Shown in pieces: positions 55,714 to 63,770 of a stretch of DNA of 64,000 bases. A model generated the notes under the pieces. That model saw nothing but the letters and a program-made list of their open reading frames with translations. It was not told the DNA's origin and did no database searches. Position numbers and translations under genes: made by a program. How positions within the stretch are numbered: position 1 is the stretch's first letter; every line of letters starts with the position of its first letter. The stretch comes from Diacronema lutheri (Eukaryota > Haptophyta > Pavlovophyceae > Pavlovales > Pavlovaceae), in contig JAGTXO010000005.1 in the NCBI GenBank assembly GCA_019448385.1, forward strand, positions 682,001 through 746,000, written 5' to 3'.

Positions 55714-58700
55714 TCAAGGCGCGGGGCCGGTCCGTACCGCTCCCGTGAGTGAGCGCATGCCGGTCCGTGCGCCCAAGACGAGCATTGGCGCGGAGGCCGT
55801 GTTGTCGGCGTCCTCGAGCTGCGCGCCCGCGCACGCCACAGCCTCAAAGCCGGCCGCGCCGCCGCACGTACGGCCACCGCGCCGAGCGTCAAAGCGCTCG
55901 CCGCCAGGGCCGTCGGCGCGGGCGCGTGCCGTATGCGCGTCCAGGCCGTCGCCACGCTCGCCTTTGCCGTCGCTCGCTTCTTCGTGCGAATCGTCGTCCG
56001 TCTCGTCCTCCGACTGCGAGGGCGCCGAGTAGCCGAGTTCCTCCGCCTCGGCGAGCAGCGCGCCGAACCGCTCGTGCGCGCGCGCGCGAGCGCGGCTGCG
56101 CCCGCCGCGCTCGTCACGTGCACCAACCGCAGCCTCTGCGCCGCCGCCGCCGCCGCCGCCGCCGCTGCTGCTGCTGCCGTTGGCCACGGCCGTGGATGCG
56201 GCAGCGGGCGATCCGCAGCGCGACCTCGGCCCACCCTTGCAGCCGCTGTTGCCATCGATTGCAGCGCGCGCGCGCGCGACGGCTGCAGAGAGCGCCTGCT
56301 CTTGCCGACGCAACTGTGGCAGCGCACTGCACGCGCGCGCAGCAGGCGACGGCTTTCGCGCACACGCGCCGCGATGCGCAGCTAGCTCGGCCTCACGGAG
56401 ATGCCGCGCAGCGTCTGTACGCGCGCGCGCGCCGCACAGCGCCGCAATCATGTCAGCAGCCCTGTCGCACGCGCGCTCCGCGGCGGCGCAGAGCGCGGCG
56501 ATGGGTGCAGCCGGCACCGCGCGGCCACGCGTCGCACGCCAGCCCAAAACTGCCTGCAGCGCGACGCGCAGCGCTGAGAGCAACCGGCCGCACGACATGG
56601 CGGCAGCACCCGGCGCACGCCCGCCCCTCTCGAGCGCGCGCTCGAGCGACCGCGTGCACGCGCGCAGCGCACGCTCTGCCTCGGCGGCAAGTGCGACAAG
56701 GGCCTCGAGCGCGGCGGCAGAAAACGCACGCGGCGTCGCGCGCGCGAGCGCGACGGCGACGAGCTGCGGTAGCGCGGCGCGCACCGCCGCGCGCACCGCC
56801 GGCGAGAAGCGCGGCGCGCGCGCGCGCGCGCGGTCGCGGTCGCTCGCCGTGCGCGCGCGCTTTGGCGGCGGCCGCGCGCGCGCCGCGCCTGCGCGCGCGC
56901 GCGCGTCGGCGCGTGTAGGTTGCGCGCGCGCGCGCGCGGCGCGGAGGCGCTCGCCGCCCGGTAGCGCGCGGACGGGCGCGCGCGTCGACGGTGCGCCCTC
57001 ATCATCGCTCGAGCCCGCGCCGCCATCTCCCGACTCGCCGCCATCGCCGCCATCTCCCGAGTCGCGATCCCTGCGCTGCTCGGCATCGATGCCGCTCGCG
57101 TCGCTCTGCGACGACGAGTCGATCTCCTCGTCCTCGCTCGCGTCCTCGCTCTCGTCCTCGCTCGCGTCCTCGCTCGCGTCCTCGCTCGCGTCCTCGCTCG
57201 CGTCCTCGCTCTTGTCTTCGTCCTCGCCACAGCCGCGCGTGCGCGCCATGCCACCGTCGACAAGCGTCTGCACGAAGGGCGCGAGCTCGGCCGTTGGCAG
57301 CCATTCGCCAAGCGCGAGGCAGCAGCAGCAGACAGCCCAGCCATGCTGCACATATCGGCTCGCGACGCCGGCCGCGCGCGCGGTGCCGATGGCCTCGGCG
57401 AGCCAAGGCCGCAGCTCTGCGAGCTCGAGCGGGAAGCGTGCGCACAGGAGCTCGAGTGTAAGGCGGCTCAGCTCAGTGCTGCCGCCCTCTGGGCTCGGTG
57501 CGCACGTTTGGACCGGCGGCGCGTGGGCGGAGGCCACGGCGCCGTCCGCGGCCGCCGCGCGGCGCGTGGCGACAGCGGCCGCGCGCGCGGCGGCGATCGC
57601 GCGCAGCGCGTGCACGGCGCAGTGCGGCTCTGGGCATTGACGAAACGAGGCGATCAAAGCGCGCTGCACGCCCTCGGCAGCCTCGGCGTCGGCGCCGCGC
57701 GCTCTCTCGCGCTCGGCCGCGGCGGATGGCGCGGGCCGCGGCTCTGCGTGTGCAACCCTCGCCAATCGCGTGTGCAGAAGCCAATAACAGCAGCCGAGCG
57801 CGCGCGCACACGCGTGCGCTACATCGAGCGGCTGGTGCGCGTCCTCGCCTCGCGCGTCTTGCCCGTCGTCCGCGCAGCTGTCGCCATCCGAAGCAGACAG
57901 GTCGCAACCCGAAGTCGGAGCGCACGCCTCGCGCGAGGCTGCGGCCGCCATCAATACGCCGCCACGCGCCATGGCACCGCGTGCCACGCGCCTGCCGCGC
58001 GCGCCGCGGGCCGAGCGCGGCGCGCCCATCTGGCGCGCGGCGGCGAGAGCTGCGTCAGAGCGGAGATGTGCAATCGCCGAGCGCAGAGCGTCGCCCAGCC
58101 CGAGCAGCTGCATCGCCGCGTCCCACAGCTGAGGCGAGACGCGCTGCTCGGGCTGGGCAACGCTCAGCGCACCGCGCGTCGCGTCCGCGTCCGCGCCCGC
58201 GCCCGCGCCCGCACCCGCGCCCGCGCCCGCAAGCGCGAGCGCGCGCAAGCAGTGCGCGCGTAGCCCTTCAGAGAACGTGCTGAGCGCGCGCGCGGCCGAC
58301 GCGTCGTCGCGCGTGCCGCCGTCCCCGCCCGGCGGCGGCAAGCCGTCGAGGACGGCGAGCAGCAGCGCGCCGCTCGGCTCGCCCGCAGCAGAGCGCAGCG
58401 CAGCCTCGAGTTGCCGCCGTGCGCCGAGAGCGGCGCCCGTCGCGCCCACCGTGCGCGCGCATTGGGCGGCGCGCTCGCGGAGCGCGAGCGCGAGGCTCAG
58501 CCGATCGCACAGCGCAGCGGCGAGGGGCCCCTGCGGCCGAACCGACGAGCAGCTCGACCCGCAAGTCGACGGCTGTAGAGCGGCGGGCAGCGGGCCGCTC
58601 GCCGCCGCTGAATGCTCTTCGAGCGCGAGCTCGCACAGCTGCAGCTGAATCGCCGCAGCCACCACGCACTCCCAGCCCGCCCGTTGCGCGTCGAGCGGCG

Positions 58701-61170
58701 CCACGAGCGACGGGCGGCCGTGCGATCGCACGTCGCCTGCCGCGTCGGCGCGGTGCGCGGCGCGGCTGCGACCGGGTGCGACGACCGACGGCGATGCGGC
58801 CGCGCTCGTGGCGGCGGGCATACCGCTCAACATGTCCCATAAGCCGCTCGCGCGCTCGCCGCGCTCGGTCGTGGCCCCCTCGCCGCGCTGCGTCCTGCGC
58901 GCGAGTGTCGTGGGTGCAAGGAGCACGGCGCGCGCGCCGACGCGCGCGTGCTCCGGCACGGCCACCTCGAGCGCGAGCCACTCGGCCGCGCTGCGCGGCA
59001 GGGGCTGGCACGGCGCCGGGCCATTCAGTGCGCCGCTGCCGCCATTATAACCTCGGCCACCCGCGCCCTCGCCGTGCGCTCCGCCCAGCTGGGGCTCAAG
59101 CACGCCGCGCAGCGCGCGCCCGAGCCTGGCGGCGGCGCAGAGCGCTCGACGCAGCTGCGCGAGCGCCTCGTTGCGCTCCGCCGCGGCGACGAAGAGCAGC
59201 GCGCACGCGGCGTGCGGTGCGCCGCGCGCTTCAGCCGCCGCGCCGAGCGCCGAGGCGAGCACGGGCCACAGAGCGGCGTGTAGCGCGTGCGATGCGACGT
59301 CGCCCGCCCAAGATGGCGCGCCCACCTGCTCCAGAAAGGCGCACGTCGCGCCGCTCAGTGCCCACTCGGCGAAGCGCGAGGGCGCGCACGCGTCGAGCGG
59401 TGCGCCCGTGCCGTTGCTGTCTGCGCCCAGCGCGCGCGCGCCGGCGCTGGCGCGCAGCGTGCCGAGCGCGCGGCGCAGAATTTCCAAGGCTTCGTCGCGC
59501 GCCTCGGCGACGCACGTGTCATCCTCCGCCGCGCCGCCGCCGTTGGCCTCGCCGCGCTCGCCGCCGGCACTGGCGCGCACCACGCAGCACAAGCCGCCGA
59601 TGAGCGCGCCGCCCAGCTCGAGCGCGCAGCACGCGGCTGCGCCCGCGCGCACGCCGTGCCGCGCCGCGCGCGCGCACGGCGCCGAGCGCAGCCCGGACGC
59701 GTCTGCGCGCGCGCGCCGCGCAACCGCGAGCAGCGGCTTGTGCACGGCCGCGGAGAGGAGCAACGCGCGCACGCGCGTCGCATGCTCACACAGTGCGCCG
59801 AGGGTGCTGGCGAGGCTGGTGCGTGCGCCGTGGGGGAGCGCTGGTGCCACGCCCTCCCACGCTTCGGCGAAGAGCTGCGCATGCGCACCGAGCGCGTGCG
59901 CGCGCGCCACGCACGCCGCGCGCAGCTCGTCGCAGTAGAACTGCGCGTCGAGCTCGGCCACGACGAGCCGCGCGGGGGCGTCCGCGCCGCCCGACGCGAG
60001 CGCGGCACGCGCGCTGTCGAGCTCGCGCGCGCGCGCGCCGAGCGCGACGAGCGCGAGGCTGAGCAGCTCGACGCGCCGCACGCCGAGCGCGGGCGGCGCG
60101 GCCGGCTCGGCGGCGGCGGCGACCGCGGCGAGCGCGACGCGCACAGCGCCCGCACGCACGCCGCCGCCGCGCGAGCGCGTGTCGCGCGGCGAGAGCAACG
60201 CGGCGCACGCGGCGGGGAGCGCGTCGGCCGCGCGCGCGGCAAGCACTGGATCGACGAGGCATGCGCGCACGAGCTCGAGCGCGGTCCCGCCGCCCTCCGC
60301 GTCCGCGAGCTTCACGAGTGCAGCACGTGCATCGCCGGAATGGATGCCGCGCTCGAGCAGCAGTAGGAGCAAGAGCATGTCGAGTGGGCCGTGTGCGCGC
60401 GGCGGCTCGCGCGCGAGAGCGCGCAGATAGCCCGCCGCCGCTGGCGCATTGAGCCGCAGCGCGCCCGCCACCACCTCCGCCGTGAGCGCGACCGTGCCGG
60501 CGGATGCGCCGCGCACGCTCGCACGTACCGCCGCCGCCGTTCGCGCGGCGCGCTCGGGCGACGCGACGGCGAGAAGCGCTCTTGCGAGCGCGGGGATGTC
60601 CGATTCGTCGACAACCAACAGCGCGTGCAGCGCCATCTCGCCGACCTCGTCGCGCGTGGCGGGCGCGAGCGGCAGCTCGGCGAGCGATCCGATGACCGGC
60701 AGGAGGAGTGAACGGTCTGCCGCGACGAGCTCGCGGTAAACATCGACGACGGCGTCGAGCTCGGCGGGCGGGCGCGGGGCGACGAGGCAGCCGACAGCAT
60801 GGAGCAGCTCCTTCGCCGTCTCACTTTCCACGCACGGCAGTAGCTCGACCAGCGCCGCCGTCGCCGGCGCGCACGGCGCGCCCCAGGCGGCGAGCAGCCG
60901 GACCGTCGGCCGGACCGCCGCGGCCGACTCGTCGAGCTGCAGGCGGCGGATGAGTGCGACGGTCGCGGCGGCGGCCGTTGGTGCCGCGCGGAGCAGCGCG
61001 GACGCCGAAGCGAGCGCCTCCTCGAGGGGCGCCTCGAGCAGCTGTTCCAGCGCGCCGTAGGTGTGGGGGACGAGCGCCGACGAGTTTCTCTTTGAAACGC
61101 TTTTGGAAGGGGCCCGGTCGGACGTGCTCGTACTGACTGACGTCTGACGGGCGACCGCCGACGGCTGCTT
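55714..61170 (-). CDS. FANCD2: FANCD2-like Fanconi anaemia DNA-repair protein; start codon not found
   Basis: Open frame from the codon after TGA 61171-61173 to the stop at 55714, about 1,818 codons. The N-terminal part aligns by eye with FANCD2: ALIRRLQLDESAAAVRPTVR, then TAALVELLPCVESETAKELL, then LLLPVIGSLAELPLAPATRD and ESDIPALARALLAV, in the same order and spacing as the human LIVSQLKWLD, IITSLPEILG, TVPILDVLSSLRLDP and LEDLPVIIKFIL blocks. The rest is an alpha-solenoid with Ala-rich inserts. Acidic repeats (SEDA)n lie at about 57117-57230, a PPPKRAR basic motif follows, and a second acidic stretch precedes the C-terminus. FANCD2 pairs with FANCI and clamps DNA at crosslinks. No ATG lies between the upstream stop and the conserved region; the first GTG is at 60831, which would cut off conserved sequence. 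The neighbour's stop is only 32 bp away. Confidence 0.62.
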   Translation of the reverse strand, partial: KQPSAVARQTSVSTSTSDRAPSKSVSKRNSSALVPHTYGALEQLLEAPLEEALASASALLRAAPTAAAATVALIRRLQLDESAAAVRPTVRLLAAWGAPCAPATAALVELLPCVESETAKELLHAVGCLVAPRPPAELDAVVDVYRELVAADRSLLLPVIGSLAELPLAPATRDEVGEMALHALLVVDESDIPALARALLAVASPERAARTAAAVRASVRGASAGTVALTAEVVAGALRLNAPAAAGYLRALAREPPRAHGPLDMLLLLLLLERGIHSGDARAALVKLADAEGGGTALELVRACLVDPVLAARAADALPAACAALLSPRDTRSRGGGVRAGAVRVALAAVAAAAEPAAPPALGVRRVELLSLALVALGARARELDSARAALASGGADAPARLVVAELDAQFYCDELRAACVARAHALGAHAQLFAEAWEGVAPALPHGARTSLASTLGALCEHATRVRALLLSAAVHKPLLAVARRARADASGLRSAPCARAARHGVRAGAAACCALELGGALIGGLCCVVRASAGGERGEANGGGAAEDDTCVAEARDEALEILRRALGTLRASAGARALGADSNGTGAPLDACAPSRFAEWALSGATCAFLEQVGAPSWAGDVASHALHAALWPVLASALGAAAEARGAPHAACALLFVAAAERNEALAQLRRALCAAARLGRALRGVLEPQLGGAHGEGAGGRGYNGGSGALNGPAPCQPLPRSAAEWLALEVAVPEHARVGARAVLLAPTTLARRTQRGEGATTERGERASGLWDMLSGMPAATSAAASPSVVAPGRSRAAHRADAAGDVRSHGRPSLVAPLDAQRAGWECVVAAAIQLQLCELALEEHSAAASGPLPAALQPSTCGSSCSSVRPQGPLAAALCDRLSLALALRERAAQCARTVGATGAALGARRQLEAALRSAAGEPSGALLLAVLDGLPPPGGDGGTRDDASAARALSTFSEGLRAHCLRALALAGAGAGAGAGAGADADATRGALSVAQPEQRVSPQLWDAAMQLLGLGDALRSAIAHLRSDAALAAARQMGAPRSARGARGRRVARGAMARGGVLMAAAASREACAPTSGCDLSASDGDSCADDGQDARGEDAHQPLDVAHACARALGCCYWLLHTRLARVAHAEPRPAPSAAAERERARGADAEAAEGVQRALIASFRQCPEPHCAVHALRAIAAARAAAVATRRAAAADGAVASAHAPPVQTCAPSPEGGSTELSRLTLELLCARFPLELAELRPWLAEAIGTARAAGVASRYVQHGWAVCCCCLALGEWLPTAELAPFVQTLVDGGMARTRGCGEDEDKSEDASEDASEDASEDASEDESEDASEDEEIDSSSQSDASGIDAEQRRDRDSGDGGDGGESGDGGAGSSDDEGAPSTRAPVRALPGGERLRAARARAQPTRADARARAGAARARPPPKRARTASDRDRARARAPRFSPAVRAAVRAALPQLVAVALARATPRAFSAAALEALVALAAEAERALRACTRSLERALERGGRAPGAAAMSCGRLLSALRVALQAVLGWRATRGRAVPAAPIAALCAAAERACDRAADMIAALCGARARTDAARHLREAELAAHRGACARKPSPAARACSALPQLRRQEQALSAAVARARAAIDGNSGCKGGPRSRCGSPAAASTAVANGSSSSGGGGGGGGAEAAVGARDERGGRSRARARAHERFGALLAEAEELGYSAPSQSEDETDDDSHEEASDGKGERGDGLDAHTARARADGPGGERFDARRGGRTCGGAAGFEAVACAGAQLEDADNTASAPMLVLGARTGMRSLTGAVRTGPAP

Positions 61171-61202: not shown

Positions 61203-62809
61203 TCAGTCTGAGGCGGACCCGCCGGGCGGCGCGTCCGACTCCGCGTCCGCACCGCGCGCGAGCTCGCCGCAGTCTGCGATAAGGACGTCCTGCAGCGGCT
61301 TGTCGTCGCTGTCCGTCTCAAGGCTCTCGATCCGCCGCACGACGTCCATCCCGGCCGTCACCTTGCCGAAGACGACGTGCTTGCCGTCGAGGTGCGGCGT
61401 CTCCGCTGTCGTGATGAAGAACTGCGAGCCGTTGGTCCCCGGGCCTGCGGGACGCCAGTCCGACGCGTCGCGCGGCCGCCGCGGGCGGGGCGCACGCAGC
61501 AGCCGCGCCGCATGTGAGCGGTCGATGCACGCACGCGCCGCGCGCGCGCGCGCTGGCGCGCACCAGAGTTTGCCATGGAGAGGAGTCCGGGTGTGTCGTG
61601 CTTGAGCTCAAAATTCTCATCGTCAAACTTGGAGCCGTAGATGGATTCGCCGCCCATCCCGTTTGCCAGCGTGAAGTCGCCTCCCTGCAGCATAAAGTCT
61701 TTGATCACGCGGTGGAAAGAGCATTCCTTGTAGTGCAGCGGCACGCCAGCCACACCGATGCCCTTCTCGCCCGTGCAGAGCGCGCGAAAGTTCTCCGCCG
61801 TCTTGGGCACCTTGTGCGCGAAGAGCTCAAACTCGATGCGCCCGGCCGCCTCGCCGTCGATCGTGATGTCAAAGAAGGTGCGCGGGAGCGGGCCGGTGTG
61901 GACGAGGATGGACGGCTTGTCGTCGTACATGGACACCTTGGAGAACATGCCGCCGTACAGCGAGGCCTCCTTCGCCTTGGCCGCGCTCTCCGCTTTCTTC
62001 ACTGCGTCGTACAGCTCGCGCAGCTCGCGGTTCGCCGGCTCGAGCGCGATGGCCGCGCGCAGGTCCGTCTTGGCCTCAGCGTACGATTGGAGGGCCTTGT
62101 GCGCGCTCGCGCGGCGGAAGAGGGCCTTGACGTTGTTGGCGTCGAGCTCGAGCGCCGTGTTGCACGCGGCGAGCGCGGCCGCCGCGTCGCCCAGCTTGAG
62201 CCGGCACATCGCCTCGTTGAGCAGGCACGTCACCTCACTCGCGAGCGCGTCGCGCGCCGCGTCGGCGGCCGCTTCGTCGAGCTCGTCGCCCACCTCGTGC
62301 AGGTAGTCGGCGGCCGACTTGTACACGTCGGCGGCGTCGGCGAATGAGCCCGCCTTAAAAAGCGCGGTCCCTTCCGCCTTGCATTTGGCTGCCTCCGCGA
62401 TGCGCTCGTCGGCCGACATCTCCCACTTGCTCTTCTTCACCGCCGCCCACGAGAAAAGCTCGACCTCAAAGTCGAGCGTCGCGCCGGGCGGGATCTTGGG
62501 CGGCGAACCGCGCGCGCCGTAGGCGTATTCGGGCGTGCACGTGAGCACGGCCTTCTCGCCCTTGTGCATCGACGCCACGCCCACGTCCCAGCCCTTGATC
62601 ACCTGCCCCTGGCCGATCACAAACTCAAACTCCGTCCCGCGGTCCCGGCTCGAGTCGAACTTGGAGCCGTCCGCAGCGAGCGTGCCGACGTAGTGCACCT
62701 TGACGCGCGATCCGGCGGGGGGCGTCCCCGCCGACGGGTCGCCCGCCTCGAGCACGCGCTTCAAGCAGCCGGCGTCGCCCGACACGTCGATCGCCTCGGA
62801 GTCGGCCAT
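61203..62809 (-). CDS. Dual-family immunophilin: FKBP-TPR-cyclophilin
   Basis: Exons 62809-61564 and 61444-61203, 495 aa. Order: FKBP peptidyl-prolyl isomerase (residues about 10-118: [60 protein letters not shown]), three TPR repeats (about 128-275: [60 protein letters not shown]), then cyclophilin (about 300-475: [64 protein letters not shown]). Catalytic Arg in SFHR and Gln in MLQGG are present; the cyclosporin-contacting Trp position is His (TPHLDG). The 119-nt GTGCGC intron splits [12 protein letters not shown]. This FKBP-TPR-Cyp architecture is the FCBP type described in Toxoplasma and some other protists. Divergent from EF-P (56 bp between starts). Confidence 0.95.
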
Positions 62810-62865
62810 TGTTCCAGACGTTTTCTCAAACAAACGCATTTTCGCACGCGTGGAAGGCGAGGGCG
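62810..62865. promoter_or_regulatory. Very short divergent promoter, immunophilin/EF-P
   Basis: 56 bp separates the two start codons (identical in length to the ybeY/mnmG spacer). It contains TTTTCTCAAACAAACGCATT, AT-rich for this DNA. Confidence 0.5.
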
Positions 62866-63689
62866 ATGTTGGCGAATGTTTTGATTGCCCTCGCTGTCGG
62901 CCACGTGCGGGCCGCGCGCGTGGGCCAGCGCGCGGCGCCTGTGCAGGTGCGCGCGCGCGCGCGCGAGGCTTGCGCGGTCTGCGCTGCGCCCATTGCGCAC
63001 ACGCGCGGGCCGCAAGACGCATGCTAGCAACCCCCTGGCCGTAACGCACGCGCGTCTGAAGCGCGGCACGTCGCCGTGCGTGCGCGCGCGCGCGTTGGGC
63101 CACGCAGTCGCGCGCGGCGGTCTCGATGCTCACGTCAAACGACTTTAAGGTCGGCATGACGATTGAGTCGGACGCCGTCCCGTACAAGGTGATCGAGTTC
63201 CTCCACGTGAAGCCGGGCAAGGGCTCCGCGTTTGTGCGCTCAAAGTTGAAGAACCTGATCACCGGAAACACGATGGAGAAGACGTGGCGTGCGGGCGAGT
63301 CGGTCGGCGCTGCAGAGGTTGAAAAGTTTGACGTGCAGTACACGTACAAGGAGGGCGACCAGTATGTCTTCATGGACATGGCCTCGTTTGAGGAGATGCG
63401 CATCGACGCAAAGGCGATCGACCAGATCGACTTCCTCAAAGAGAGCGGCTCGGCGCAGGTGGCAAAGTGGAACGGCCAGATCATCTCGGTCGAGCTGCCC
63501 AACCAGATGAACCTCAAGGTGATCGAGACCATGCCGGGCGTCAAGGGCAACACGGTGCAGGGCGGCCAAAAGCCGGCGACGCTCGAGACGGGCGCGGTCA
63601 TCCAGGTGCCGCTCTTCATCGAGGAGGGCGAGGAGGTGCGCGTGGACACGATCGAGAAGAAGTACCTCTCACGGGCAGCCAAGGAGTAG
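62866..63689 (+). CDS. efp: Translation elongation factor P, plastid-targeted
   Basis: Exons 62866-62946 and 63108-63689, 220 aa. EF-P relieves ribosome stalling at polyproline. Exon 1 encodes a textbook signal peptide ([20 protein letters not shown]) and the splice (GTGCGC donor, CCACGCAG acceptor, phase 0) joins it to [16 protein letters not shown], giving a bipartite presequence as used for plastids of red-algal secondary origin. The mature part has three domains: [12 protein letters not shown] with the tip lysine in PGKG that is modified in many bacteria, the middle domain, and the C-terminal [20 protein letters not shown] and [17 protein letters not shown] signature. A 48-base G homopolymer starts 34 nt after the stop. 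Confidence 0.97.

Positions 63690-63720: not shown

Positions 63721-63770
<50 letters not shown>

Follow-up and report, generated by a model that had tools for sequence, protein, structure and literature searches.

The window analysed here, a 64,000-nucleotide stretch of the Diacronema lutheri genome with a GC content of 73.1%, carries on its minus strand, at positions 61203–62809 (contig C82), a two-exon gene for a 495-aa protein in which an FKBP domain, three TPRs and a cyclophilin domain follow one another, the layout of the proteins known as FCBPs. The gene, delimited by splicing and translation, Pfam matches and placement in the genome, runs from an ATG at 62809 to a stop codon ending at 61203, exactly as given in a preliminary description of this DNA. 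A second gene, for the elongation factor EF-P, lies upstream on the plus strand (62866–63689), and the downstream flank holds a 1705-aa open frame (55714–60831, minus strand) that has no Pfam match at 1e-3.

Gene structure and integrity of the reading frame

Exon 1 of the FCBP gene (61564–62809, minus strand, 1246 nt) encodes the FKBP domain, the TPRs and two thirds of the cyclophilin, whose end is encoded, together with the stop codon, by exon 2 (61203–61444, minus strand, 242 nt). Between them lies a 119-nt GT-AG intron in phase 1 (61445–61563), which separates the residues ANSG from PGTNGSQFF, and the alignment of the spliced product with CypA and Cyp40 is gapless across the exon junction. 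By eye, the intron position, after residue 415, coincides with none of those in three cyclophilin paralogues (approximately 372, 398, 421 and 442). Pfam places an FKBP_C domain (PF00254, E 3e-34) at residues 30–118 (62456–62722, minus strand) and, beyond the TPRs and in the same chain, a Pro_isomerase domain (PF00160, E 4e-53) at residues 312–475, within a cyclophilin domain that we delimit as residues 309–477 (61260–61885, minus strand, split by the intron), bearing out the domain order originally described.

The frame is unbroken over residues 1–415, through the FKBP domain, the TPRs, the linker and the start of the cyclophilin. Given the base composition, the chance that a frame stays open for 415 codons is about 2e-4 per frame; this length is in itself weak evidence, and it is the match of the FCBP domains that rules out chance. 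GC content at third codon positions is 0.85–1.00 in all nine 40-codon blocks covering residues 1–360, with lower values at positions 1 and 2, and the block spanning the TPR-cyclophilin linker (281–320) falls within the same range; the value drops to 0.72 in block 361–400, inside the cyclophilin domain. The continuous frame and the coding signal running through the domain junctions thus argue for a single gene carrying both isomerases, as had been proposed, although the splice that had been taken to confirm the fusion does not do so, since the intron sits within the cyclophilin and crosses no domain junction; support for the fusion comes instead from the unbroken frame and the codon-position GC. 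That the FKBP-TPR part and the cyclophilin are two neighbouring genes misread as one, owing to a faulty join in the assembly or an overlooked stop codon, is highly improbable given the open frame, the third-position GC of 0.85–1.00 over residues 121–320, junctions included, the agreement of the domain order with the known FCBP family, and the PacBio coverage (~315x) and Illumina polishing of the published assembly, which comprises 43,502,671 bp in 103 contigs at 73.25% GC (PMC8379373).

The neighbouring EF-P gene

EF-P, a 220-aa protein with three EF-P Pfam domains, is encoded by exons at 62866–62946 and 63108–63689 on the plus strand, separated by an intron at 62947–63107, and appears to be single-copy, the two matches in a genome search being its two exons. 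Between EF-P and the next gene, an unbroken run of 48 G at 63723–63770 lies in a longer G-rich tract, and the assembled length of this run may be unsure. The start codons of EF-P and the FCBP gene diverge from a gap of 56 bp (62810–62865), the spacing initially reported, from which it had been suggested that the two genes share a theme of proline in protein synthesis or folding. Such short gaps would be expected in a genome as compact as that of D. lutheri, in which 43.5 Mb hold 14,446 genes and protein-coding sequence makes up 61.2% (PMC8379373), and the theme, drawn solely from the spacing, finds no support. By eye, the EF-P N-terminus resembles a signal peptide followed by a transit peptide, so that EF-P is probably plastid-targeted, and no N-terminal targeting extension was noticed on FCBP; the two proteins therefore probably act in different compartments. 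The proximity of the start codons and the single-copy state of EF-P are what one would cite for a divergently transcribed pair serving one proline-related programme, a reading that we regard as very unlikely in view of the compact genome and the apparent difference in targeting.

The two isomerase domains

Aligned with FKBP12, the FKBP domain is identical at Y40, F51, D52, R57, F61, V70, I71, W74, Y97, I106 and F114, and 13 of the 16 pocket positions compared (the residue list and numbering being those we take to define the FKBP12 pocket) are the same. At the remaining three, Glu54 of FKBP12 is replaced by Gln, His87 by Ser and Ile90 by Lys; FKBP52 shares the replacements of His87 and Ile90.

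For the cyclophilin domain, using what we take to be the CypA active-site residues and their numbering, Arg55, Phe60, Met61, Gln63, Ala101, Asn102, Gln111, Phe113, Leu122 and His126 are kept (among the corresponding FCBP residues are R367, F372, M373, Q375, F425, L434 and H438), and two residues are altered: Trp121 is replaced by His433, a histidine being found in Cyp40 as well, and Ala103 by Ser415. The description of both active sites as intact consequently stands for most residues of either site and fails for these two cyclophilin positions. According to a 2025 review, a histidine at the Trp121 position permits activity and cyclosporin binding, with RANBP2 an exception as to binding, and His141 of Cyp40 impairs neither (PMC12865271). 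The domain also bears a divergent-loop insertion and two cysteines, C345 and C474, as described for divergent-loop cyclophilins (PMC7641896).

We considered the exchange of Trp121 for His as a mark of Cyp40 kinship and set it aside as nonspecific, since among the 38 rows of our cyclophilin alignment it recurs in five other loci of the same genome (L011, L014, L015, L019 and L072) and in a prokaryotic one (L081). In the tree of these 38 rows, FCBP and Cyp40 both fall outside a 21-row group (93/91), FCBP on the CypA/Cyp40 side, with the exact position of neither settled. In AU tests of pairs picked after the tree had been seen, groupings of FCBP with Cyp40 (p 0.41), with a TPR-cyclophilin-ankyrin protein encoded on contig C4 (L014; p 0.37) and with L010 (p 0.26) were not rejected; a grouping with L024 was rejected (p 0.001). 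The tree includes 11 of the 74 prokaryotic loci described below and omits L016 (the same gene as L072), L025 (row too short), L026–L030, L034, L036–L038 and L069 (the same gene as L014), together with 18 cyclophilin matches assigned to no locus, save those on C69, represented through L148, and second exons lying inside included loci; the row for L033 is badly pieced, and its letters at positions 113–126 are not real. The FKBP-domain tree drew on 27 loci of the same genome, 17 of which gave a non-duplicate row of at least 75 aa, and among its 21 rows the placement of FCBP is likewise not settled, no branch being starred.

A scan of prokaryotic sequences, which catches close relatives only, returned 94 pattern-matching stretches, 74 of them encoding a relative, in every case of the cyclophilin part; the FKBP-TPR part (residues 1–300) matched none of these 74 loci (tblastn, E <=1, flanks up to 3 kb). 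In viral contigs, seven stretches fitted the pattern and none was a relative. Seven of the prokaryotic loci (L074–L079 and L147), which belong to Nannocystis species and to the MAG of a planctomycete, encode cyclophilins 63–70% identical to the FCBP domain; these may have come from eukaryotes by transfer or, in the MAG, be contaminants.

The TPR region and its clamp residues

The TPR region spans residues 133–286 (61952–62413, minus strand). Three single-repeat TPR models of Pfam score above cut-off, their best stretches falling at two places (195–226 and 228–260), and FCBP aligns to the TPR domain of FKBP52 along the full length of that domain. A single-sequence AlphaFold model of the exon 1 product is poor overall (mean pLDDT 46, pTM 0.31), its best part being a run of seven helices over residues 133–286 with a pLDDT of 43–76 in 10-residue blocks, which is the layout expected of three TPR helix pairs and a capping helix. 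Taken together, the alignment, the Pfam models and the weakly modelled helices agree with the three TPRs that had been placed between the isomerases.

At the five positions that we take to form the Hsp90-binding carboxylate clamp (K, N, N, K, R), the alignment gives K144, T148, N198, K228 and R232 in FCBP, that is K-T-N-K-R, identical to FKBP52 (K-T-N-K-R) and differing from Cyp40 (K-N-N-K-R) at T148, where Cyp40 has Asn. These residues are not peculiar to FCBP, since other TPR proteins of the genome keep all or some of them: the TPR-cyclophilin-ankyrin protein of C4 has K-T-N-K-R, and an FKBP-TPR protein of contig C33 has R-V-N-K-R, with three kept. One Hsp90 of D. lutheri, encoded on contig C11, has a C-terminus reading SKMEEVD, the sole MEEVD tail among the eight Hsp90 loci examined out of nine matches. 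Because the clamp residues are kept and this Hsp90 ends in MEEVD, docking on Hsp90 is the most economical reading of the TPR region; the residues indicate a capacity for docking, as distinct from binding itself, and the AlphaFold model is too weak for judging the geometry of the clamp.

Relation to solved immunophilins and to other genes of D. lutheri

The closest solved relative of FCBP by sequence is Cyp40, over the cyclophilin and TPR stretches taken in reversed order, and the best for the FKBP-TPR part is FKBP52, which aligns over the FKBP domain, the TPRs and the final helix, with 98 of 286 residues identical between its second FKBP domain plus TPRs and FCBP. FCBP is accordingly of the FKBP51/52 kind in its FKBP-TPR part, taken as far as the helix that succeeds the third TPR: as in these proteins, an FKBP domain precedes a three-TPR domain of the clamp type and a final helix, and the K-T-N-K-R set is that of FKBP52; it differs from them in having a single FKBP domain and in the cyclophilin that follows the TPRs. 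The C-terminal cyclophilin is of the CypA/Cyp40 kind, and FCBP resembles Cyp40 in its divergent-loop cyclophilin, in the histidine at the Trp121 position and in the joining of a cyclophilin to a clamp-type TPR domain, whereas Cyp40 has the cyclophilin ahead of the TPRs and lacks an FKBP domain.

Six-frame searches of the genome gave at least 33 FKBP matches (at least 30 loci at 3-kb grouping) and at least 48 cyclophilin matches (at least 33 loci), FCBP included in each case, these counts being matches, as distinct from gene models, and therefore lower bounds. Among the matches listed, the FCBP locus is the sole FKBP and cyclophilin pair less than 17 kb apart, the next, on contig C6, being 17.7 kb apart. 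Other FKBP-TPR genes lie on C33 and C69; the frame on C33 (L070, 1792–3546, minus strand) has a hydrophobic C-terminal stretch, presumably like that of tail-anchored FKBP38.

A search with the Cyp40 TPR domain gave 24 matches, the best being FCBP itself. When these and six further TPR matches from another search, whose other TPR matches coincide with some of the 24, were compared with the cyclophilin matches, only FCBP and the TPR-cyclophilin-ankyrin gene had the two within 10 kb of each other, and since both carry the TPRs first, no Cyp40 was found by this 10-kb proximity of matches, which a much-split or divergent copy could escape. Apart from FCBP, no gene was found in which a cyclophilin occurs together with a clamp-type TPR domain and an FKBP domain. 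The TPR-cyclophilin-ankyrin frame (C4, approximately 1155065–1159552, plus strand; 4566–9053 of L069) lacks an FKBP match and continues beyond the cyclophilin into ankyrin repeats; alignment reveals its TPRs, which the Pfam scan misses. Ankyrin repeats and a cyclophilin are combined a second time in the genome, in a frame (L072, 1591–2832; C4:707090–708331, plus strand) with a histidine at the Trp121 position.

Discussion

FCBP was first reported from Toxoplasma in 2005, and a 2018 survey by Barik tabulates 44 eukaryotic members (40 according to its text), of which 13 are apicomplexan, 11 oomycete, 8 ciliate, 4 diatom, 2 dinoflagellate and 6 from other groups (PMC6316441). The preliminary description, which spoke of few known examples, notably in Toxoplasma, overstated the rarity of the class, given the 44 in this table. 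The D. lutheri protein shares with TgFCBP57 and its apicomplexan, ciliate, oomycete, diatom and dinoflagellate relatives the order of FKBP, three TPRs and a Cyp_ABH-like cyclophilin, its host is unicellular like Toxoplasma, and its length of 495 aa compares with 521 aa for TgFCBP. Since it shows the layout features of FCBPs that were tested, it is a further member of this class of dual-family immunophilins, a joined enzyme of a known, uncommon kind in single-celled eukaryotes. The CFBPs of Flavobacteria and spirochaetes likewise hold both isomerase families in one chain; they differ in being prokaryotic, in placing the cyclophilin first and in the lack of TPRs (PMC6316441). An earlier survey, from 2009, recorded TPR-bearing FCBPs in Theileria, Babesia, two ciliates and one oomycete, and TPR-less FKBP-cyclophilin proteins in Ostreococcus and archaea, and held several origins of FCBPs to be slightly likelier (PMC2713222). 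Haptophytes are unnamed in the main text of both surveys (PMC6316441, PMC2713222), and our literature search found no haptophyte FCBP, although Barik's six other organisms could include one.

From the kept clamp residues and the tail of the C11 Hsp90, we consider that FCBP probably serves in the cytosol as a co-chaperone of Hsp90, one that bears two isomerase heads. Its TPR clamp would bind there to the MEEVD terminus of Hsp90 and might also accept the similar tail of Hsp70; docked in this way, it would place two prolyl isomerases of different families beside a client held by Hsp90, and prolyl bonds of the client would be isomerised during its maturation. If docking occurs as proposed, the three TPRs would not only space the isomerases but also form a docking module. 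Both domains of TgFCBP are active, and FK506 and cyclosporin A both inhibit it (PMC6316441). A different role has been proposed for FCBPs, that of a translational co-folding centre (PMC6316441), in which the TPRs would chiefly serve as a flexible hinge, linking two isomerases that would co-fold two nascent chains near membranes, Hsp90 taking no part. The location of TgFCBP at or close to the membrane of the parasitophorous vacuole (PMC6316441) speaks for such a role; it leaves the kept Hsp90-clamp residues unexplained, however, and inspection by eye revealed neither a membrane anchor nor a signal in the D. lutheri protein, for which we think this role unlikely. In the main text of the survey that sets it out, Hsp90 appears in the reference list only (PMC6316441).

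If FCBP is an Hsp90 co-chaperone, it is possible, though doubtful, that in the D. lutheri lineage it took over the role of Cyp40, so that a single chain would supply Hsp90 with isomerases of both families. Apicomplexans are apparently without a PPID orthologue, PPID being given a mitochondrial role in the same source, so that a cyclophilin other than Cyp40 may be meant (PMC2713222). Only if PPID stands for Cyp40 would this absence agree with such a replacement, and we draw no support from it.

The D. lutheri gene puts FCBP in a haptophyte. Organisms with FCBPs are, as a rule, without single FKBPs, Phytophthora infestans being an exception (PMC6316441), whereas D. lutheri has at least 29 other FKBP loci; the published rule therefore fails in this species, and a genome that encodes an FCBP can have many further FKBP loci. 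For a class whose role is unsettled, the analysis offers a concrete candidate partner, Hsp90. Should the proposed docking be true, and should the clamp be kept in other protist FCBPs, the whole class would consist of Hsp90 co-chaperones and not of stand-alone folding centres; and should FCBP indeed have replaced Cyp40, its presence would trade off with that of Cyp40, a relation that is checkable across protist genomes.
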